Source: Haloplanus salinus
GTDB lineage: Archaea > Halobacteriota > Halobacteria > Halobacteriales > Haloferacaceae
NCBI RefSeq assembly: GCF_003336245.1
Contig: NZ_QPHM01000001.1
Location: 496,001 to 560,000 of the forward strand
Length of the DNA: 64,000 nt
Direction: 5' to 3'
The notes under the pieces were generated by a model. It did no database searches, had not been told where the DNA came from, and was given only the letters and a program-made list of their open reading frames with translations. A program made the translations under genes and the position numbers. Below are positions 17,641 to 28,773 of this stretch, one piece after another. Every line of letters begins with the position of its first letter. The stretch's first letter is position 1.

Positions 17641-18723
17641 TCACAGGAGACCGTCGATCCGGTCGTCGGTGAGTCCCGCGTCGTCGTCTTCCTCTTCCCG
17701 TTGTTTTTCCGCGCGCGCCGCCTGTCGCGCGCGTTCGAGGAAGCCTTCGAGGCGGTCGGAGCGAGCGACGCCGCCGAGGAGAACTATGGCGGCGAGGCGG
17801 TCGTCGCGGGTCGGGAAGTCCCCGCCGCGCACCTCCATGGTATCGACTTCCGTCTCCAGCCACGAGCGGGCGCGTTCGACGCCCTTCCGTGAGATGGCGT
17901 CCGGGCGCCCGGCGACGACCAACAGCCCCCGTTCCGCAGTCGTCGTCTCGGGGAGACTCAACCCCGAGCGCACCGCCCGGCGGGTCGTACTCGTGACCAC
18001 GTTGGCGTTCGCGGCGGCGGCCGACGAAGCGTCGGCCGAGGCGTAGCCGAGCGTCGCGACGCCGCCCCCACGGAGCGTGTTGACCACCTCGGAGCTGTCG
18101 ACGACGGACTCCCCGACGCCCCGTGTCGCCTCGCCGGCGGCAAGTAGGAGGCCGACCCGCCGGGCGATGCGTTCGTTGATCGCCTCGTAGCCGGATTCGA
18201 GGCTCTCGCCCGACGACCGCCAGGCGTCGTTGTCGACGAGGAGGGTGGCGTCGGCCTCGCGGCGCAGCGTCTTCAACGACCGCCCGGCGTTCACCTGGTA
18301 GAGCGACCCCTCGTCGCGGCCGGGCAGGATGCCCAGCCCGTAGACGGGGCGGTCGTATATCTCCTGCAGTTCGCCCACGAGATACGGCGCGCCGCCGCTT
18401 CCAGTGCCGCCGCCGAGGCCGGCGACGACGAATATCGCCTCGGCCTCCGCAGTCGTTCGGCCGTCGATGGCACCCACCACTTCCTGCAGGTCGTTTCGCA
18501 TTACCCGCGTGCCGAGTTCGTTGTCGCCGCCGACGCCGTGGCCGTTCACCTCGGCGCCGCCGATGAGGACGGTGTCGAGAGGGAGGGACTGCAGATCCGA
18601 GCGGGCGCTGTTGACCGCGAGCGACCCGACGACGGCACCGAAGCCGTTGCGCGTGTCGAAATCGGACAGCGCGGCGGTGACCTTGCCGCCGGCCTGCCCG
18701 ACGCCAATCAGGACGGACTTCAT
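17641..18723 (-). CDS. cetZ: CetZ-family tubulin-like GTPase
   Basis: 360 residues. The N-terminus MKSVLIGVGQAGGKVTAAL is the tubulin T1 loop and VVAGLGGGTGSGGAPYLV is the tubulin GGGTGSG signature; the length and C-terminus fit CetZ rather than FtsZ. CetZ proteins are archaeal cytoskeletal GTPases; CetZ1 of Haloferax volcanii controls rod shape and motility. An acidic tail (EEEDDDAGLTDDRIDGLL) ends the chain. The gene is divergent, 85 bp apart, from the first gene of the pilus-like locus. Which CetZ paralog it is cannot be told by eye. The open frame continues far upstream of this ATG but has no coding character. Confidence 0.93.
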   Translation of the reverse strand: MKSVLIGVGQAGGKVTAALSDFDTRNGFGAVVGSLAVNSARSDLQSLPLDTVLIGGAEVNGHGVGGDNELGTRVMRNDLQEVVGAIDGRTTAEAEAIFVVAGLGGGTGSGGAPYLVGELQEIYDRPVYGLGILPGRDEGSLYQVNAGRSLKTLRREADATLLVDNDAWRSSGESLESGYEAINERIARRVGLLLAAGEATRGVGESVVDSSEVVNTLRGGGVATLGYASADASSAAAANANVVTSTTRRAVRSGLSLPETTTAERGLLVVAGRPDAISRKGVERARSWLETEVDTMEVRGGDFPTRDDRLAAIVLLGGVARSDRLEGFLERARQAARAEKQREEEDDDAGLTDDRIDGLL

Positions 18724-18783: not shown

Positions 18784-18808
18784 TACGATGCCGGGACCAC
18801 CGCGCCGC

Positions 18809-19393
18809 ATGGACGACCGATTGGAAGAACGCGTCGCAGCCCTCGAACGCTCGCTCACCGACGGCCACGCCGACGACGGACTCCCCGACGCCGCACGGAT
18901 GGACGCCCGCCTCGACGAACTCGAGGCGACCGTCGACGGTGTCGAGGATCGGGTGGCCGAACTCGACGCGGCGGTGCAGGCGCTCCGTGGCTTCGCCGGC
19001 GGCGTTCGAGCGGTCGACGAGGCGGTCGAGCGGCGAGCGGACGCCGCCGTCGCCAGGGTCGACCGGCTCGAAGCCGACATAGCGGAGGTGCGCGAGGCGG
19101 TGGCCGAGCGAGCGGCGGGCGGCGCGGACGAACCGGCCGGTCGGGACCGCGACGCGGCCCCGCGTCGTGGCGCACGCACCACCTCACGGCGCGACCGGGA
19201 TCGGTGCGAACGGGGCGTCGCGGGCGACGCTACGGAGGGAGACGACCGCCGTCGCGGCCACGGCGGATCGCTGGCCGGCGAGGTGGCGGCCAACGCCGAC
19301 GCCGCCCTCGCCGAGGCGGCCGCGATGGAAACGGGGTCGGACGACGACGGCGACGACCGGTCGCTCGCCGAGCGGATCCGTCGGCTCCTGTGA
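18809..19393 (+). CDS. Coiled-coil protein opening the pilus-like locus (DUF7310-like)
   Basis: 194 residues, almost wholly helical. Heptad-rich stretches at ~1-15, ~30-62 (LDELEATVDGVEDRVAELDAAVQALRG) and ~70-100 (RVDRLEADIAEVREAVAER) should form coiled coils. A charged, disordered middle follows, then a short C-terminal helix SLAERIRRLL. I recall this as the DUF7310 type found beside secretion ATPases in haloarchaea. Its TGA overlaps the next GTG. It could be a scaffold linking the ATPase to other parts (inference). Confidence 0.78.
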   Translation: MDDRLEERVAALERSLTDGHADDGLPDAARMDARLDELEATVDGVEDRVAELDAAVQALRGFAGGVRAVDEAVERRADAAVARVDRLEADIAEVREAVAERAAGGADEPAGRDRDAAPRRGARTTSRRDRDRCERGVAGDATEGDDRRRGHGGSLAGEVAANADAALAEAAAMETGSDDDGDDRSLAERIRRLL

Positions 19394-19851
19394 TCCGGGT
19401 CGTCCTCGCCGTCCTGTTGACCGTCGCGTTGCTGGCGGCGGTGACCCCAGCCATCGACGAGGGCCGGGAGCGGCGAACGGCGATCCATCTCGACCGCGCC
19501 GTCGACCGGATCGACCGCGCGGCGCGGTCGCTTCGCGCACACGAGGACCCGACGGCGCCAAGCGTGGCGGGCGCGCGCCGGCTCGTCAGCGTCCGCCTCC
19601 CGGAGCGGTCGTGGACGGCCATGAGCGCTCGTCTGTGGATCGACGGCGAACACGACCGGATCGGTTACCGCCTCGACGGCCGGCGCACGCGCCGGATGCG
19701 ACTCCGGGGGATCGACCTTCGAACGCCGGACGGCCGCATCGTCGTCGACGGCGGATCCCGACGGCGTCTCGAACTCTCGCTCGTCCGCGACGACGGGGTC
19801 GGTGTCGTCGTCGGAGGTGGAGGTGGAGGTGGAGGTGGAGGTGGAGGTTGA
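19390..19851 (+). CDS. Single-helix membrane-anchored protein of the pilus-like locus (DUF7311-like)
   Basis: 153 residues from a GTG overlapping the previous stop. One N-terminal membrane helix (IRVVLAVLLTVALLAAVTPA) is followed by helix EGRERRTAIHLDRAVDRIDRAARSL and a beta-rich domain (RRLVSVRLPE, IDGEHDRIGYRLDGRRTRRMRLRGI). That order, helix then beta domain, recalls pseudopilins. The chain ends in twelve glycines coded by six GGAGGT repeats. The next gene begins 26 bp later. Confidence 0.78.
   Translation: MIRVVLAVLLTVALLAAVTPAIDEGRERRTAIHLDRAVDRIDRAARSLRAHEDPTAPSVAGARRLVSVRLPERSWTAMSARLWIDGEHDRIGYRLDGRRTRRMRLRGIDLRTPDGRIVVDGGSRRRLELSLVRDDGVGVVVGGGGGGGGGGGG
19813..19848 (+). repeat. GGAGGT x6 perfect hexanucleotide repeat ending at a stop codon
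   Basis: Six identical GGAGGT units run directly into the TGA at 19849-19851 and encode (Gly)12. Each unit is also a Shine-Dalgarno-like sequence, and the secretion-ATPase ATG lies 29 bp downstream of the last unit. Confidence 0.95.
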
Positions 19852-19877
19852 AAAGCGATGCCGCGGCCACCGACCAC

Positions 19878-21794
19878 ATGCGACTGCTGGAGCGAGCGTG
19901 GACGGACGGGGCGGACACCGACGACGGGTGTCGCTGTGAGCCGACGTTTCGAACGCCGGCCGGGAGAGCGACCGAAGGGAACCCGGCGCTCGTCCTCGAT
20001 GCCGAGGACTGTCCGGGTGGGGGTAACCTCGCCGCCGAACCGCCCTGTCGCGCCACGGCCGTCGGCGCCCTCGCGGAACGTGACGCCGACGCGGTTCGCG
20101 TCCGCCGTGACGGGCGCGAACGCGTCTACGACGACGGCGCCGTTGGACTGCTGGTCGCAGCCGGCCGGTTCGCCGCCCGCGTCGCCGTCCACGACGAGGC
20201 GCTCGCGGAACGAGCACGGCGTGATCCGCTCGGCGCCGCCCGCGCGGCGACCGGCCGCACCGGACCGGTCGCGAAGCTAGCGGCCAGTTCGGGGTTGGCC
20301 GCCGGCGCCGACCGGGCCGGCAGCGAGTACGAGACGGCGCTGTCGTCGACCGTCGGGCTGGCGGTATCGAACTCGCGATTGGTCGAGCGACCGCCAGCGG
20401 GGGCGTCGCTGGTCGAGCGGCGCGAACTCGACACCGGCGCGACGGTGCGTCGCTACCGGACCGAGCGCGGCGGCTACTACCTGCTCGACCCGCTCGGCTC
20501 ACGGCTGGACGACGTCGAGGTGCGTGCCCTGTCGGCCGCTTACGAGCGGTTAGCGTCCGGCGGCGCCGACGGTGGGCGGCCGGTCACCCACGCCGTCCGT
20601 GCCGCCGACGCCGTCGCCGGCGACGCGGCCGTCTCCGTCGAATCGGTCGAACGGGTCCTTCGCAAACACACCCGCGGCCACGGCGTCCTCGACGACCTGT
20701 TCGCCGACCCGGCGGTGTCGGAGGTAGTGGCGTCGGCACCGGTGAGCGACGGCCCGGTCCGGATCGTCGTCGACGGCGAGCGACTGCCGACGAACGTCCA
20801 CCTGACCCGACGAGGGGTGGCGGCGCTCGCGTCCCGCTTCCGCCGGGAGAGCGGGCGGGGATTCTCCCGCGCGAACCCGACGCTCGACGCGACGACGGAG
20901 GGGCCGTTCGGCGAAACGGTTCGCGTCGCTGGCGTCACCGACCCCGCCAGCGACGGCACCGGATTCGTCTTCCGTGCTCACGAGACGGACGCGTGGACGC
21001 TCCCGGCGCTGGTGGCGAACGGGACGCTCCCGGCCGACGCGGCAGCGCTCTGCTCGCTGGCTGTCGAACGCGCCGCCGCAGGGTTGATCGCCGGGCCACG
21101 TGGCGCGGGGAAGACGACGCTCTGTGGGGCGCTCCTGTGGGAGCTCCCGCCGTCGGCCCGGACCGTCGTCGTGGAGGATACGCCCGAACTCCCGGTCGCG
21201 GCGCTCCGCGACGCCGGACGGGACGCCCAAGCCGTCAGAACCGAAGCCGACGACGGCCCGGCGCTCTCGGCGACGGAGGCGTTGCGCACGGCGCTCCGAC
21301 TCGGCGACGGCGCGCTGGTCGTCGGCGAGGTCAGGGGTGAGGAGGCGACGACGCTCTACGAGGCGATGCGGGTCGGCGCGGCGTCGAACGCCGTCCTCGG
21401 GACGATTCACGGCGACGGCGCCCAGTCGGTCCTCGAACGCGTCGTGACTGATCTCGGCGTGCCGGCGTCGTCGTTCGCGGCGACCGACCTGCTCGTCACC
21501 CTCTCGGCGGGCGAGCGGCGACGGGTGGCCGGTATCGAGGAGGTCCGCTGCGCCGACGGCGAGGTGGCGTTCGAGTCGCTGTTCGAACGCAGCCCCGACG
21601 GCACGGAGCCGACGGGTACCGTCGAGCGTGGGAACAGCCACCTCGTGGCGTCGCTCGCTCGCCCCGACGAGTCGTACGCGGACGTGTTGGCTGCGCTCGA
21701 CGACCGCGAGACCGTGCTGTCGGAGCTCGCCGAAAGCGAGCGGACGGCCGCCGCAGAGGTCGACGCGGCACACCGGCGGCGGGTGACGGAATGA
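19878..21794 (+). CDS. Type II/IV secretion (PilB/TadA/GspE-like) ATPase
   Basis: 638 residues. The N-terminal third contains several Cys (CRCEP, AEDCPGGG, EPPCRA) and is poorly conserved. The middle, SVERVLRKHTRGHGVLDDLFADPAVSEVVASAPVSDGPVRIVVDGERLPTN, is the pre-ATPase domain of TadA/VirB11 types. Walker A is GPRGAGKTT near residue 406; the Walker B/Asp-box region GALVVGEVRGEEATTLYEAM is near 480; GTIHGDGAQSVLERV is the His box. Hexameric ATPases like this power pilus assembly, archaella or secretion. ATGA overlap couples it to the next gene. Confidence 0.92.
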   Translation: MRLLERAWTDGADTDDGCRCEPTFRTPAGRATEGNPALVLDAEDCPGGGNLAAEPPCRATAVGALAERDADAVRVRRDGRERVYDDGAVGLLVAAGRFAARVAVHDEALAERARRDPLGAARAATGRTGPVAKLAASSGLAAGADRAGSEYETALSSTVGLAVSNSRLVERPPAGASLVERRELDTGATVRRYRTERGGYYLLDPLGSRLDDVEVRALSAAYERLASGGADGGRPVTHAVRAADAVAGDAAVSVESVERVLRKHTRGHGVLDDLFADPAVSEVVASAPVSDGPVRIVVDGERLPTNVHLTRRGVAALASRFRRESGRGFSRANPTLDATTEGPFGETVRVAGVTDPASDGTGFVFRAHETDAWTLPALVANGTLPADAAALCSLAVERAAAGLIAGPRGAGKTTLCGALLWELPPSARTVVVEDTPELPVAALRDAGRDAQAVRTEADDGPALSATEALRTALRLGDGALVVGEVRGEEATTLYEAMRVGAASNAVLGTIHGDGAQSVLERVVTDLGVPASSFAATDLLVTLSAGERRRVAGIEEVRCADGEVAFESLFERSPDGTEPTGTVERGNSHLVASLARPDESYADVLAALDDRETVLSELAESERTAAAEVDAAHRRRVTE

Positions 21795-23512
21795 GCCGCC
21801 CGATCGTCGAACGGCTCGCCGGCTGGTGGCCGTTGGCCGTCGATCCGGCTCCGGAAACCGATCGGGCGCTGGCGTATCTGGAAGCCAGCGTCGACGCCGA
21901 GACGCTCGACGCGGCGTCGCGGGCCGTCGCGGCCCTCGTCGTCGTCGTCGCGGTCGGTGCCGGCGTGTCGGTGGCTGCGGTCGCGACCACACGACTCGGC
22001 ATCGGCGTCGCGTCCGCCGGCACGGCCACCGGCGTCGCCGTACCGCTCGGCGCGAGTCGGGGGGTGCGATTCCTGTCGACGGTGGCCCGCACCCGAGCGC
22101 TCGGTGCCGCCGCCTCGCTCGTCGGCCGGGCGGCCCTCCGGTTGCGGATCGATCCGACGGTCGAGCGAGCGGCGGCGTTCGCCGCCCGCACCGGGCGCGG
22201 ATCGCTCGCGGCGAGTCTCGGCGAACACGTCGAACGGGCTGCGGGGACACCACGAAACGGGATCGACGCGTTCGCACACGAGTGGAGCGACCGCTTCCCG
22301 GCGCTCGAACGGGCGGTGACGCGACTGGACGCCGCCGCGTCCGCACCCACGGCCGAACGCGACCGGCATCTCGACCGGGCCGTCGAGGCGGCACTCGACG
22401 GCGTTCGGGAGGAGCTGGCCTCGTTCACGGGCGAGATCAGAGGGCCCGTCACGGGACTGTACGCTTTCGGCGTTCTCCTGCCGCTCGCGTTGATCGGCGT
22501 CCTGCCGGCGGCACGGGCGACGGGCGTCAGACTCTCCATACCTATGATCGTCGCGCTGTACGACGTCGTGCTACCCGCGGTGGTAGTCGCGGCGGGGGCG
22601 TGGATTCTCGCTCGTCGCCCCGTCGCCTTTCCGCCGCCGCGGGTCGGTCGCGACCACCCCGAGCTACCGAACCGTCGCCACTACGCCGTGGCGTACGGCG
22701 TCGTCGCGGCAGCGGTCGGTGGCTACGTCGCGACGCAACTGGTCGGCCCGTGGGCGGCGCCGGTCGCCGCAGCCGGCCTCGGAGTCGGCGTCGGCCTCGT
22801 CGCCGACGCCCGCCCGGCGATGCGGGTGCACGAGCGTGTCCGCGCCGTCGAATCCGACCTCGGCGACGCTTGCCATCTCGTAGGGCGACGCGTAGCGGCG
22901 GGGGAGGCCGTCGAGACGGCTATCGCCGACGCGGCGGCGCAACTGACTGGGGCGACCGGTGCGATGCTGGCCGATGCAGCGGATCGACAGCGACGGCTTG
23001 GCGTTACGGTCAGCGAGGCCTTCGACGGCGAGACCGGCGCCCTCGCGACGCTCCCGAGTCGGCGGGCGCGCGAGGTGGCGACGCTTTTCGCACTCGCCGC
23101 GACCGAGGGTCGACCGGCCGGCGAGGCCCTAGTCACGACGGCCGAGCACGTCGCGGAACTCGATCGGGTCGAGCGCGAGGCGCGCCGGGAACTGACACGG
23201 GTGACGGATACGCTGTCGAACACGGCTGCAGCGTTCGGCCCGATCGTCGGCGGGACGACGGTGGCACTGTCGGCTCACGTCACGCGGACGAGTACGACCG
23301 CGCAGTTCGGGGCCGCCCCGCTCCCGACGGCCGAGTTAGGGCTAGCCGTGGGTGCGTACGTCCTCTGGCTCGCCGCAGCGCTTACCGTGCTCTCGACCGG
23401 AGTGACGTACGGGATCGATCGGACGCTCGTCGGCCACCGCGTCGGCGTCGCCCTCTGTCTCGCCACCGCCTGCTATCTCGCGGCGTTCGTGGGCGCCGGC
23501 CTCTTCCTCTGA
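21791..23512 (+). CDS. TadC/GspF-like platform membrane protein
   Basis: 573 residues with about eight to nine hydrophobic helices and two cytoplasmic helical domains, as in archaeal duplicated T2SSF proteins. The domain copies are visible as VERAAAFAARTGRGSLAASL...FPALERAVTRL (~125-190) and LVGRRVAAGEAVETAIADAA...VATLFALAATEGRPAGEALVTTAEHV (~360-450). Such proteins form the membrane platform for the ATPase. It overlaps the ATPase by 4 bp (ATGA). The C-terminal helices end in a final LAAFVGAGLFL segment. Confidence 0.9.
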   Translation: MSRPIVERLAGWWPLAVDPAPETDRALAYLEASVDAETLDAASRAVAALVVVVAVGAGVSVAAVATTRLGIGVASAGTATGVAVPLGASRGVRFLSTVARTRALGAAASLVGRAALRLRIDPTVERAAAFAARTGRGSLAASLGEHVERAAGTPRNGIDAFAHEWSDRFPALERAVTRLDAAASAPTAERDRHLDRAVEAALDGVREELASFTGEIRGPVTGLYAFGVLLPLALIGVLPAARATGVRLSIPMIVALYDVVLPAVVVAAGAWILARRPVAFPPPRVGRDHPELPNRRHYAVAYGVVAAAVGGYVATQLVGPWAAPVAAAGLGVGVGLVADARPAMRVHERVRAVESDLGDACHLVGRRVAAGEAVETAIADAAAQLTGATGAMLADAADRQRRLGVTVSEAFDGETGALATLPSRRAREVATLFALAATEGRPAGEALVTTAEHVAELDRVEREARRELTRVTDTLSNTAAAFGPIVGGTTVALSAHVTRTSTTAQFGAAPLPTAELGLAVGAYVLWLAAALTVLSTGVTYGIDRTLVGHRVGVALCLATACYLAAFVGAGLFL

Positions 23513-23550
23513 CCCGGGCTTCAAGTGCGGTGACGGGTCCACACCCACCC

Positions 23551-24018
23551 ATGATCGGTGTTCCAGTCGACGCGTGGTACGTGTGGCTCGGCCTGTCGCT
23601 CGCGAGCGTCGCGCTCGTGGGCGTCGGGGCGACGCTCCCGACGGCACCGCCGCCGGCGGCGGCGGACGCCGCGGACACGGTCGATCGAACGGCTGCGACG
23701 GCCTATCCGGCGACCGCCGAACATCCACTCGACGCGGAGTCGGTTCGCGTCGGATCGAGACGGCTCGGGCTTCGAAACGACGCCGGGACGACGCACGCGA
23801 CGTTCGCGTTCGGGCCGGTGACGCCCGCGGTGGGGACGCCCGGGCTGCGGGCGATCCTCCATGGTGCCCCGCCGGGGTCCCGGTTCGACTCCGGCGAGGC
23901 GCTCTGTGCAACCGGGCGCGACGCGCGGCAGCGGGCGCCCAGATGGCGACCGATCGACCGCCCGCTGATCGTCCGACACGTCGTGTGGGAGGGGTGTGAT
24001 GTCACGCTCGTCGGCTAA
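23551..24018 (+). CDS. Membrane-anchored protein of the pilus-like locus (DUF7283-like)
   Basis: 155 residues. After a short N-terminus comes one membrane helix (WYVWLGLSLASVALVGVGATL), then an extracytoplasmic domain with two Cys (GEALCATG, VWEGCDVTLVG) that could pair. It follows the platform gene by 38 bp and overlaps the next gene by 20 bp. Resembles the haloarchaeal DUF7283 type found in the same gene order; function unknown. The single N-terminal anchor is compatible with a minor pseudopilin-like role (inference). Confidence 0.78.
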   Translation: MIGVPVDAWYVWLGLSLASVALVGVGATLPTAPPPAAADAADTVDRTAATAYPATAEHPLDAESVRVGSRRLGLRNDAGTTHATFAFGPVTPAVGTPGLRAILHGAPPGSRFDSGEALCATGRDARQRAPRWRPIDRPLIVRHVVWEGCDVTLVG

Positions 24019-24394
24019 GGGGCAGGTCGAGCCGATTGCTGCGCTCGTCTGCCTGCTGGCGGTGTGTGCCGCCGTCTCGACGTACGCGACGGTGCTCGGG
24101 AAAGCCGGATACGAGACGGAACGGGACGTAGCGCCGCCGACGCTCGACCGCGTCGTCGACCGCCTCGCGGTCGGCGGCGTCCTCGTCCCCGACCGGAGGG
24201 AACGAGCCCGGGCTGCCGGGCCGAGGGGGTACCGACTCAACGTCACGGTGGCGGCGGCGGGGAAGCGCTGGCACGCGGGGCCGACGCCGCCGGGGCGGCG
24301 GGCGGACACTGATACCGCGGCGCGAACTATCGGCGTCCGACTGGCGCCGGGGCGGGTTCGCCCCGGCCGGGTCCACGTGGAGGTGTGGACGTGA
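23999..24394 (+). CDS. Pilin-like protein with a KGQVEP signal motif (DUF7285-like)
   Basis: 131 residues. The N-terminus MSRSSAKGQVEPIAALVCLLAVCAAVSTYATVL has a basic leader, a G-Q junction, Glu at +3, and a ~20-residue hydrophobic stretch. This resembles archaeal class III (prepilin) signal peptides cut after Gly by a PibD-type peptidase. A short basic/beta domain follows. ATG 23999 is chosen over GTG 23996. It overlaps both neighbours, so it is cotranslated. Cleavage is a prediction. Confidence 0.78.
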   Translation: MSRSSAKGQVEPIAALVCLLAVCAAVSTYATVLGKAGYETERDVAPPTLDRVVDRLAVGGVLVPDRRERARAAGPRGYRLNVTVAAAGKRWHAGPTPPGRRADTDTAARTIGVRLAPGRVRPGRVHVEVWT

Positions 24395-25248
24395 CGAGCA
24401 CCGTCCTCGACGCCGTCCTCTGTCTCCTGCTGATCAGCGGTGCGGTGGTGACCGTGACGACGGCTGCGCCGCACGAACCGGCCGGGGAGGGACGTGCGGC
24501 CGACGTGGCGGCGACGCTGACGACGACCACCACGTCGGTGACCCACACGCTGACTCCTCGAACCGGAGCGACTGGGGTCGACGTTCCGAATCGGTCGGCT
24601 CGCTTCGAGAGGACGAGCCACGGAACGTTGGCCGAACTCCTCGCGCGCGCCGCCGTCGCCCGCACCGAGGTAGACGGCGAGCGGCTCTGGTACGCGCGGG
24701 ACGGCTTCGTCCGCGTGGTCAACCGGTCGGTGCGAGGGGTCGTGCGACCGAATCACACCCTGATCACCGCGACTTGGCGACCGTACCCCGAGTCGTCGAT
24801 CGAGGGGCAGGTCGTCGTCGGGAGCCGGCCGCCGCCGGGCCGCCCGGTACACGCGGCGACGGTCGAGGTATCGAGCGGGTTTCCGACCACACGGGACGCG
24901 AGCCGCCGCGCCGCGCGGGAGCGCGGAGTCGGCGGCGTCGCCGACGTCGTCGCCGGTGGACTCGTCCGGGGACTCTTCCCGGCGACTCGCACCCGAACCG
25001 CCGCGGGTGGCGCGGCTCCGGCGGCAGCGCTCGTCCACCATCGGTACCGCCGCACCGCCGCACGACTCGGCGTCGAGCCGCCGTCACGACTCGCTGACGG
25101 CGGCGTCGAGGCCGCCAACGATCGCCTCGAGTCGGCGCTTGCGGATCGCGTCGCACGGGATCTGCGATCGGCGGACGCCTCGGCCGCGAGGGCCGCCGAG
25201 GGCGTCCGTCTCGGTCGCGTCCGCATCGTCGTGAGGACGTGGCCGTGA
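24391..25248 (+). CDS. Single-helix protein of the pilus-like locus (DUF7284-like)
   Basis: 285 residues from GTG 24391 overlapping the previous TGA; a GTG at 24385 is an alternative. N-terminal membrane helix TVLDAVLCLLLISGAVVTVTTA, then an exported domain with a Thr-rich segment and three NxS/T sequons, and a helical end (EAANDRLESALADRVARDLRS). Not similar to a characterised protein. The position between two pilin-like genes implies it is part of the same assembly. Confidence 0.78.
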   Translation: MTSTVLDAVLCLLLISGAVVTVTTAAPHEPAGEGRAADVAATLTTTTTSVTHTLTPRTGATGVDVPNRSARFERTSHGTLAELLARAAVARTEVDGERLWYARDGFVRVVNRSVRGVVRPNHTLITATWRPYPESSIEGQVVVGSRPPPGRPVHAATVEVSSGFPTTRDASRRAARERGVGGVADVVAGGLVRGLFPATRTRTAAGGAAPAAALVHHRYRRTAARLGVEPPSRLADGGVEAANDRLESALADRVARDLRSADASAARAAEGVRLGRVRIVVRTWP

Positions 25249-28200
25249 CCCGGTTCATAGAGGACCGGCGTGGGCGCGTCCCCTTCGCGCTCGTCGGCGT
25301 CGTGCTTCTCGTCGGTGCGTCGACGTTCGGGGCGGCCATCTCGACGCAGGGGCCGGATCGGGTCGACCGCGGCGTCGACGCGGCGGTCGAGCGGTCGTCC
25401 GCCGAGGCGACGACCGCCGTTCGGTCGGGGGTCGCGGAGGCGGCGCGTGAGGCGGCCGCGGAGCCGGTGACGGCGCCGGCGGAGACACCGTACGGGCAGT
25501 TAGTGAGTAACGCGACGCCGTTTCGGGACGCGCTCCGGCTTCGGATCTACCTGCGCGTCCGGGAGCGACTGTCGGTGACCCGGTATCGCCGTGGAGACGT
25601 GACCGCCGTCGCCAGGCTTCCGGCCGCGACGACGCCGGCCGAACTCCGGCACGGCATGGATCGGATCGAGGTTCGTGGCGTCGAGAACGGAACCGCCCTC
25701 CGCGTGACGGTGCGGAATCTGACCGTCACTGCACGGGAGTCGGGGCGGGTCGTCGCTAGCGAGCGACGGGATCGAACGGTGACCGTCTCGACGCCGGTGC
25801 TGGCGCTTCACGACCGCGCGATGGCGTTCGAGACGCGGCTGAATCGAGGGCCGCTCGAGGGACCGGGACTGGGCCGTCGGTTGAGCGCGCGGCTCTACCC
25901 CATCGCGTGGGCGCGTGGCTACGCCCAACATTACGGGACGGCACCCATCGCCAACGTCGTCGCGAACCGTCACGTCGAGTTGGCGACCAACGGCGCCGTA
26001 CTCGAAGCACAGCGGGCGGCGTTCGGCCGGAGCGACCCCACGGGCCGGAGGGCGATGCAACGCGCACGGCTCGAGTTCGGAGTGACGGAGTTCGCGGCCG
26101 GGACACCCATCAACGGCACGATGGCCGAGCGTATCCTTCCACGACCGAACGAAATCGGCGCGTCACCGGCACCGCTCCACTCCCGCCACGGGGCGGGCAA
26201 CGCGTCCCCGAACCGGCGGCTGAACGTCGACGTGGGAACGATGTCGGGGCGAGCCTTGGCTAGCCTCCGGACGGAGTCGATTCGGTCGAACCGATCGCTA
26301 CACGATGTCCTCCGGGCGGCCTACCGGGTCGAGACGACGCTCCGAACGACGCGTCGGCGGACGTACGCGGAACCACGTCCGGAGCCCGACGCGCCGGGGG
26401 AGGGGTGGAAACTCGTCGATACCGACGAGAGTGTGAACCCGACGGTCGAGTCGAGTATCGGGTCGACGCCCGACGTTCGTCCGGGTGAGCGTCGATTCGA
26501 CGGGTTCGCCAGACACGTCGAACTCGACCGGCGGGTGACGTGGACCTGGCGGCAGGGAAACGACACGACGACCACGGGCGGCGAGTGGACCGAGCGCTAC
26601 CGGGTGGGCGTGACGCTGGCCGGGCGATACGCCCCGAGCGGGGCGGCGCCGGATCGGCCGACGCGGCCCCGCTTCGAACGCGGCGGTCCGCTCGACGGTC
26701 CGAACCTCGCGAACGTCTCCGCGAAGGCCTCTCGACGGCTGATCGCGGAACAAGGCGGCCGGGATACCGTCGCCGCCGCCGTCGCCGCCGATGGCCTCGA
26801 CGTATCCCGAGCGGTCGTCCACGGTGACCGACCGTCTACCCTCCGCCAGTGGACGAACGAGGACTTGACCGCGCTCCGTGGTCGGCTGACCAACGTCTCC
26901 GTCTCGGTGAGCGCGGGACGGGTTGCGACGTACACGACGAACCCGCCCGAACAGTTGGCGGCCGAACTGCGTCGTCGGCGGGTGACGCTGATCGACGCGC
27001 CGGACGAGTATCACGGCGTGGCGGATCGGGCCCGACACGCCGCCCGGGCCGCGCTGGTCGACGAGGCGATCCGACGGCTGGAGCGGCGGTCGACGAACCA
27101 CAACGAGACGCGGCGGGCGTTCGACGCCGTACTCCATCGGGTCGGCGTCGGGTCCACGGACGAACTGCACGACATCGTCCGTCTCCGGAACACGCCGATA
27201 CCGGCACGGGAGGCGTCGCTCCCGGGGTCCCCACCCGGCGGTCCGGTCGGCGTCGTCCCCGACGGCTCGCCGGCGTATCTCACGGTCGCGTCGGTGACTC
27301 ACGACCGGGCGGCCGGCGTGCCGCCCTCGCGCCCGTACCACCCGCTCTCGGCGAAGAATCGCAACCTGTTCACCGTGCCGTCCGGCGACGCCGCGGACGC
27401 GACGGTCGGGGAGGGTGTCGGCGGCCCGTCGGGGGTACGACTCCGGACGGCGGCACACACCCTGATCGCCTCGGAGTCCGTATCGAACGAGTCGACCTCC
27501 GGGTCACGCCGGGCGGTCCGAGAGTCGGTGGACGATTCGATGGCCGTGATCGAGACACGGGCACGACGCGTCGTCCGGAGCGAAACGCGGCTCTCGCGCT
27601 CGGAAGCGCGGAGGGCAGTGAGTTCGGGCGTCGCACGCTGGGACGGTCCCGGCCGACGGGCGCTCGCGGCCAGTAACGGATCGCTCGCCGCCGCCATCGC
27701 CGTCGCGGCCGACGCGCGGGCGTCCGAACCGAGCGAGAGGCGTCGGGAACGACTGGAGACACGCCTCGACGCCGCGTTCGTTGCCGTCCGTCGAACCGCG
27801 GCGGCGAGGGTCGACGAGACGACGGTCGACGAGACGCTGACGCGGGTTCGAAAGCGCGCCATCGAGCGGGCGGCGTCGGAAGCGGGCGGCCGGGTCCGAT
27901 CGAGGTATCTGAACGGCTCGTTCGGCCGCGTCGCGGCGGGGTTGCCCGTCGCACCCGTGCCCGGTTACTGGTACGCGACGGTGAACGTCTGGAACGTGTC
28001 GGTTCGCGGGGCGTACGCTCGCTTTACATTTCGGACGCGACGCGGCGCGCCGGCGTCGACGCCGGGAGCGGCGGTCAGGTACGTCCGCGACGGGTCGACG
28101 GTGCGACTGGACGTCGACGGGGACGGGACGCCGGAGCGACTCGGCCGTGACGAACGAGTCGACTTCGAGACGGGGACGGTCGTCGCCGTCGCCGTCCCGG

Positions 28201-28313
28201 CGTACCGTGGCGGCGTCGGCGACGTGGACGGGAACGCCGACGAGCGCGCGGGGACGTGGCCGGAGCCGGGATGTACCTCGTGGGCGGCGAGCGCCTGCCG
28301 GGATTCGGAGTGA
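25245..28313 (+). CDS. Very large single-helix exported protein of the pilus-like locus (DUF7286-like)
   Basis: 1022 residues from GTG 25245 (overlapping the previous TGA; GTG 25239 alternative). N-terminal RRGRVPFALVGVVLLVGASTFGAAIS resembles a pilin-type leader and helix; the rest should lie outside the cell. It carries about fourteen NxS/T sequons, long charged helical stretches (e.g. ~590-640, ~740-870), and a C-terminal beta domain with Gly-Trp-Tyr patches (PGYWYATVNVWNVSVRGAYARF). A DVDGDGTPE loop near residue 965 resembles a calcium-binding loop. No known fold recognised. It could be the tip, shaft or adhesive part (inference). Confidence 0.82.
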   Translation: MTRFIEDRRGRVPFALVGVVLLVGASTFGAAISTQGPDRVDRGVDAAVERSSAEATTAVRSGVAEAAREAAAEPVTAPAETPYGQLVSNATPFRDALRLRIYLRVRERLSVTRYRRGDVTAVARLPAATTPAELRHGMDRIEVRGVENGTALRVTVRNLTVTARESGRVVASERRDRTVTVSTPVLALHDRAMAFETRLNRGPLEGPGLGRRLSARLYPIAWARGYAQHYGTAPIANVVANRHVELATNGAVLEAQRAAFGRSDPTGRRAMQRARLEFGVTEFAAGTPINGTMAERILPRPNEIGASPAPLHSRHGAGNASPNRRLNVDVGTMSGRALASLRTESIRSNRSLHDVLRAAYRVETTLRTTRRRTYAEPRPEPDAPGEGWKLVDTDESVNPTVESSIGSTPDVRPGERRFDGFARHVELDRRVTWTWRQGNDTTTTGGEWTERYRVGVTLAGRYAPSGAAPDRPTRPRFERGGPLDGPNLANVSAKASRRLIAEQGGRDTVAAAVAADGLDVSRAVVHGDRPSTLRQWTNEDLTALRGRLTNVSVSVSAGRVATYTTNPPEQLAAELRRRRVTLIDAPDEYHGVADRARHAARAALVDEAIRRLERRSTNHNETRRAFDAVLHRVGVGSTDELHDIVRLRNTPIPAREASLPGSPPGGPVGVVPDGSPAYLTVASVTHDRAAGVPPSRPYHPLSAKNRNLFTVPSGDAADATVGEGVGGPSGVRLRTAAHTLIASESVSNESTSGSRRAVRESVDDSMAVIETRARRVVRSETRLSRSEARRAVSSGVARWDGPGRRALAASNGSLAAAIAVAADARASEPSERRRERLETRLDAAFVAVRRTAAARVDETTVDETLTRVRKRAIERAASEAGGRVRSRYLNGSFGRVAAGLPVAPVPGYWYATVNVWNVSVRGAYARFTFRTRRGAPASTPGAAVRYVRDGSTVRLDVDGDGTPERLGRDERVDFETGTVVAVAVPAYRGGVGDVDGNADERAGTWPEPGCTSWAASACRDSE

Positions 28314-28344: not shown

Positions 28345-28773
28345 ATGCTCCACGACGCCGCCGACGAACCGGGGACGCTATCGACGGGACAACTTCGCGA
28401 CGCCTACGAGCGAGAACTGCGCGCGGTGGTCGACGCCCACGGCGTGGACGCCGTGGCCGCCGAAACCGGCGTGGCGGCCGAGACGGTCGACGCCCTCCGC
28501 GACGGCGCGTCGCCGACGCTGACGCTCTCGGAAGCGGCGGCGATCCTCGCCCTAGACGGTGGCCGCGACGCCGGCGCCATCGTACAGGAGGTGCGTGACC
28601 ACCTGTTGATGGGGATGACGACCGGCGTCGTCGACGTCGACACTATCGCCTCGAACGTCGACCTCGATCTCTCGGGACAGGAGGTACAGCAGGCCATCGA
28701 GGGCCGTATCCCGATGACGCTCGCCGAACTGGCCGCGATCCACGGCTACATCGCCGGGCGAAACGCCCGCTGA
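28345..28773 (+). CDS. DUF5791 family protein
   Basis: 142 residues, all helical, acidic. Blocks GTLSTGQLRDAYERELRAVVDAHGVDAVAAETGV, EAAAILAL, IVQEVRDHLLMGMTTGVVDVDTIASNVD and GQEVQQAIEGRIPMTLAELAAIHGYI match the haloarchaeal DUF5791 type as I recall it. The DAVAAETGVAAETVDALRDG part resembles a helix-turn-helix. Function unknown. It lies 31 bp after the pilus-like locus and 6 bp before the SDR gene; it may belong to the SDR transcript. Confidence 0.8.
   Translation: MLHDAADEPGTLSTGQLRDAYERELRAVVDAHGVDAVAAETGVAAETVDALRDGASPTLTLSEAAAILALDGGRDAGAIVQEVRDHLLMGMTTGVVDVDTIASNVDLDLSGQEVQQAIEGRIPMTLAELAAIHGYIAGRNAR

Follow-up and report, generated by a model that had tools for sequence, protein, structure and literature searches.

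A probable PilB2/PilC2 (CetZ2-linked) type IV pilus-like system in Haloplanus salinus

What does the eight-gene locus at positions 18809-28313 of the analysed Haloplanus salinus DNA build, and is the machine that it encodes a new one? The window, by which we mean the whole stretch of 64,000 nucleotides studied here (contig NZ_QPHM01000001.1, positions 496,001 to 560,000), had been given a first-pass annotation from the sequence alone. This described eight overlapping genes for a coiled-coil protein, an ATPase, a platform protein and five single-anchor proteins, and proposed them as an undescribed system. Eight co-directional ORFs are indeed present. They overlap at five of their seven junctions, and the remaining two junctions are gaps of 26 and 38 bases. 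The proposal of an undescribed system did not hold, as a PilB2/PilC2 regulon beside cetZ2 has been published (PMC9856176) and the proteins belong to curated Pfam families. The system is thus already known, and the pairing of its motor with a specific cargo is a useful addition. In our reading, the locus probably encodes a haloarchaeal PilB2/PilC2 (CetZ2-linked) type IV pilus-like system, in which an ATPase and a platform protein would raise PibD-processed subunits into a filament or a short pseudopilus.

A Pfam search matched seven of the eight products to curated families well above the cut-off, and an NCBIfam search gave a closer name for none of the eight. The genes all lie on the forward strand. 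The first encodes a cytoplasmic coiled-coil protein of family DUF7310 (18809-19393; PF23991, 4.8e-26) whose position is conserved; an alternative in-frame ATG lies at 18788. It is followed by a DUF7311 protein with a single N-terminal anchor at residues 4-22 (19390-19851; PF23993, 5e-42), the PilB2-type T2SSE assembly ATPase (19878-21794; PF00437, 5e-17), the PilC2/TadC-type platform membrane protein (21791-23512) and a DUF7283 protein anchored at residues 11-29 (23551-24018; PF23954, 4e-55). The last three genes encode a small pilin-like DUF7285 protein with the class III-type signal AKGQVEPIAAL (23999-24394; PF23956, 7e-37), a pilin-like DUF7284 protein (24385-25248; PF23955, 5e-86) and a single-anchor DUF7286 protein of 1024 aa with the class III-type signal RGRVPFALVGVVLLV (25239-28313; PF23957, E=0). 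By hydropathy, five proteins each have a single anchor at the N-terminus, the platform protein has several spans, and the coiled coil and the ATPase have no membrane span. Pfam matches and hydropathy therefore agree with the composition described earlier.

The Walker A/B and catalytic residues of the ATPase are invariant among eight haloarchaeal orthologues, as are the N-terminal cysteines C18, C20, C45 and C57. C20, C45 and C57 are also retained in five methanogen ATPases, which have further cysteines. In a tree of 45 rows that included these five sequences, the window ATPase grouped together with ten orthologues from haloarchaea (100/100 support). This PilB2-type group joined the five Cys-rich methanogen ATPases with 100/99 support, the deeper order being uncertain among long branches, and stood apart from the FlaI (archaellum), GspE2-like and PilB4-like ATPases.

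The platform protein of the window had no Pfam match, and comparing its profile with those of two single paralogues using hhalign found nothing. Its orthologues matched T2SSF in 13 of 22 cases, all weakly (best 9e-5), and a platform gene lies beside pilB in 69/69 named haloarchaeal loci and in all five methanogens. We identify this multi-span protein as the platform component from these matches and from its position beside the ATPase. Together with the T2SSE match and the invariant catalytic residues, the T2SSF-matching orthologues uphold the earlier assignment of the pair to a type IV pilus/Tad-type engine.

The same annotation had noted the absence of an archaellin, and we rejected the archaellum as the identity of the locus. 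The ATPase and platform proteins of the archaellum (arl/fla) are distantly homologous to those of the locus, but the window ATPase falls in a different clade from FlaI, and the archaellum genes of the same genome lie at a separate locus, with a KaiC-type ATPase (FlaH-like), FlaC/D/E and CheF. A second type IV pilus-type motor, comprising a 1025-aa PilB4-like ATPase and a T2SSF platform protein, is encoded just upstream of the window (L105, G000:C1:488000-500000).

Upstream of the coiled-coil gene, and divergent from it across a gap of 85 bp, lies a tubulin-like gene on the reverse strand (17641-18723; Pfam CetZ_C, 9e-63). Among solved structures the highest-scoring match of its product was H. 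volcanii CetZ2 (4b45, 482 bits), far ahead of CetZ1 (4b46, 315 bits). The Haloplanus genome (G000) has five CetZ_C genes, one of them this cetZ2. Downstream lies a gene for a DUF5791 protein (28345-28773, forward strand; PF19104, 3e-50). Its position is conserved and it probably corresponds to arCOG04674 in the cetZ2 region as published, though it is not clearly part of the machine. Pfam matches placed phosphodiesterase, epimerase and DHH genes among the remaining flanks.

A PilB2/PilC2 type IV pilus regulon beside cetZ2 has been described in Haloferacales and Halobacteriales (Brown & Duggin 2023, PMC9856176). The ATPase-platform pair, the predicted pilins and the divergent CetZ2 are common to the Haloferax volcanii regulon and the window locus, and the phosphodiesterase, epimerase, DHH and small hypothetical neighbours agree as well; this agreement of the flanks is by Pfam type and not by arCOG number, and on that basis we see no essential difference between the two. 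With the divergent CetZ2 and the phosphodiesterase, DUF5791, epimerase and DHH flanks, the identity of the window locus with the published haloarchaeal PilB2/PilC2 locus is well supported.

The ATPase of the locus has features of a published pilus clade. In the halobacterial variant of type IV pilus subclade 4F (Makarova 2016, PMC4858521), the ATPase has a Cys-bearing N-terminal part shared with methanogens, as in the window, and pilin-like families shared with methanogens also occur in both systems. Subclade 4F further includes a cytoplasmic coiled-coil component (arCOG07564), whose counterpart in the window is DUF7310 by its coiled coil, not by arCOG assignment, and a dedicated PilA-type major pilin (arCOG02981 or arCOG10216), which was not found in the window locus. 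The shared Cys pattern and the coiled coil suggest that the window ATPase fits subclade 4F, although H. volcanii PilB2 is assigned to subclade 4C in a later paper. The locus is probably also the counterpart of pil-2 in Halobacterium salinarum R1 (Losensky 2015, PMC4292770), a 6.9 kb locus likened here by its description. There, a haloarchaeal-type pilB-pilC pair, in which pilC2 has an in-frame stop, is followed by three predicted prepilins and co-transcribed with them. In Hbt. salinarum, adherent cells showed a rise of pilB2, at a low level, and losing only pilB1 (together with flaI) was enough to abolish visible pili (PMC4292770). For H. volcanii, three of the five pil operons, given without names, are reported as not detectably transcribed. 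The in-frame stop, the dependence of visible pili on pilB1 and the lack of transcripts from these operons speak against our reading, as does the listing under 4C.

Conservation of the neighbourhood, on which the first-pass annotation had made its reading depend, is extensive. In a set of 292 haloarchaeal genomes, DUF7286 was found in 224, covering 58 of 77 genera, with a few remnants among them. The same gene set in the same order was found in 20/20 sampled loci from seven families (DUF7284 being below threshold in three of them), with a divergent cetZ in 17. Several named Haloferax genomes share the gene order of the window. In another 69 named loci whose flanks were long enough, all eight genes were present in 53, and pilB and pilC were adjacent in 69/69; cetZ was a close divergent neighbour in 28/66 named loci. 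That gene order is kept in distant relatives rules out chance. Some other haloarchaea have cassettes of the DUF7283-7286 type with no adjacent pilB/pilC (L068, L070, L071, L072, L074 and L075), and the ATPase was elsewhere in the genome where we looked for it. Three genomes (G012, G056 and G125) have DUF7286 remnants and also lack the PilB2-type ATPase, which suggests joint loss of the system.

The distribution of the motor follows that of the largest protein. We surveyed 147 genomes of the phylum. Of the 42 that have the PilB2-type ATPase or DUF7286, 40 have both, one has a DUF7286 remnant alone and one the ATPase alone; the other 105 have neither (Fisher p about 1e-33, shared ancestry being ignored). 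Outside haloarchaea, 18 genomes had both, one had the ATPase only and 100 lacked both. In another sample of haloarchaea, the ATPase was present in 7/7 genomes with an intact DUF7286 cassette and absent from 15/15 genomes with remnants or no cassette. The pairing also holds where the motor and DUF7286 genes are unlinked, as in G116, G180, G069, G033 and the methanogens, so that linkage alone is insufficient to explain it. The PilB2-type ATPase and DUF7286 thus look like an obligate motor-cargo pair, judging from gene distribution; we found no published statement of this pairing. Co-occurrence singles out DUF7286, along with its two small partners, as the specific PilB2/C2 cargo. The product can therefore be sought by direct tests in Haloferax volcanii, and the pairing now also covers methanogens. 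In a Methanocella-like genome, the gene right beside pilC, after the motor pair, encodes a small Ig-like protein of class III type, and an A24 peptidase gene lies nearby, overlapping a relative of DUF7311. This neighbourhood supports a pilus-type machine.

The first-pass annotation had noted that no ordinary pilin is present. This stands in that the locus has no Pilin_N gene, six of which lie elsewhere in the genome. It needs amending in that three of the single-anchor proteins, DUF7285, DUF7284 and DUF7286, have prepilin signals of class III type, and the locus thus does contain pilin-like cargo. These motifs are kept across orthologues (as judged by motif), with the form RAVSTVLDVxLxLLLV in DUF7284. 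N-glycosylation sequons in the three proteins are about three times as frequent as in shuffled copies (1.09 versus 0.38 per 100 aa for DUF7286) and are not raised in cytosolic neighbours. Given the signals and the sequon enrichment, all three are probably exported subunits, with DUF7286 the probable main cargo or tip subunit. Co-occurrence with a PibD-type peptidase had been suggested as a check, and the genome has one A24 prepilin peptidase (Peptidase_A24 match).

The structure predicted for DUF7284 had a good pLDDT of 89.8 and that for DUF7286 a moderate 81. No significant counterpart emerged for either among solved structures (best Z 3.9 for DUF7284 and 5.5 for DUF7286), which is not evidence of a new fold, and phmmer found no match for DUF7286 among the sequences of solved structures. 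A literature search returned no mention of the DUF names of the locus. The window DUF7285, DUF7284 and DUF7286 proteins (23999-28313) are near-neutral to net positive, which is unusual for exposed halophile proteins.

In the mechanism that we propose, the cytoplasmic ATPase would dock under the platform protein. Powered by ATP, it would raise subunits that are held in the membrane and processed by PibD, so that a short pseudopilus or a helical filament forms. The likely exported subunits are DUF7285, DUF7284 and DUF7286 (1024 aa), of which DUF7286 would form a large functional head that is probably distal. For DUF7283 and DUF7311 we consider a role in assembly or as minor components probable; DUF7310 is probably a cytoplasmic regulator or scaffold, and CetZ2 may position the machine. 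The product is most likely a surface pilus or pseudopilus, and it may function in surface contact. We found no published report of a filament from the locus, in line with the earlier statement that its product is not known; widespread as it is in haloarchaea, it is still without a demonstrated product.

As the locus encodes no PilA-type major pilin, the subunits of a long filament would have to come from elsewhere, a point against our reading. This absence is one argument for a possible alternative, a short pseudopilus or bindosome-like device for secretion or for binding to surfaces, in which DUF7286 and its partners are extruded or seated in the S-layer, with no long filament. The subunit genes are few and one is very large, the DUF7283-7286 cassettes can stand apart from any motor, and motor and cargo are paired even in trans, all of which would suit such a device. 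Major pilins, however, often work in trans (Makarova 2016, PMC4858521), and the small Ig-like protein beside pilC in the methanogen relative is what would be expected of a pilin. A broader and rather doubtful proposal combines PilB2/C2 and DUF7285-DUF7284-DUF7286 as an obligate two-module machine ranging from Methanosarcina-like methanogens to haloarchaea. It would build a pilus or pseudopilus from large proteins of unseen fold instead of PilA-type pilins, and would be positioned by CetZ2 in many haloarchaea.

Type IV pili of other organisms serve DNA uptake or transfer, and the charge of the window DUF7284, DUF7285 and DUF7286 proteins, unusual in a halophile, could point in the same direction. 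A pilus for DNA uptake or cell-contact DNA transfer is nevertheless very improbable, as Pfam matches revealed no competence or transfer genes in the locus and the charge of these proteins differs greatly from one orthologue to another, reaching -0.116 per residue at the lowest. Very improbable, too, is a genuinely undescribed kind of machine. The DUF families without function and the absence of significant structure matches for DUF7284 and DUF7286 would speak for it, but the locus and its CetZ2 link are already published and both ATPase and platform are of standard type IV pilus types. We therefore retain the PilB2/PilC2 pilus-like system as the preferred reading.

A promoter scan, using a bacterial-type model only, found nothing. 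A perfect (GGAGGT)6 repeat is present at 19813-19848, in the 3' end of the DUF7311 gene and some 30 nt ahead of the start of pilB. Its repeated unit is like a Shine-Dalgarno motif, and the C-terminal tail that the repeat encodes is Gly-rich.
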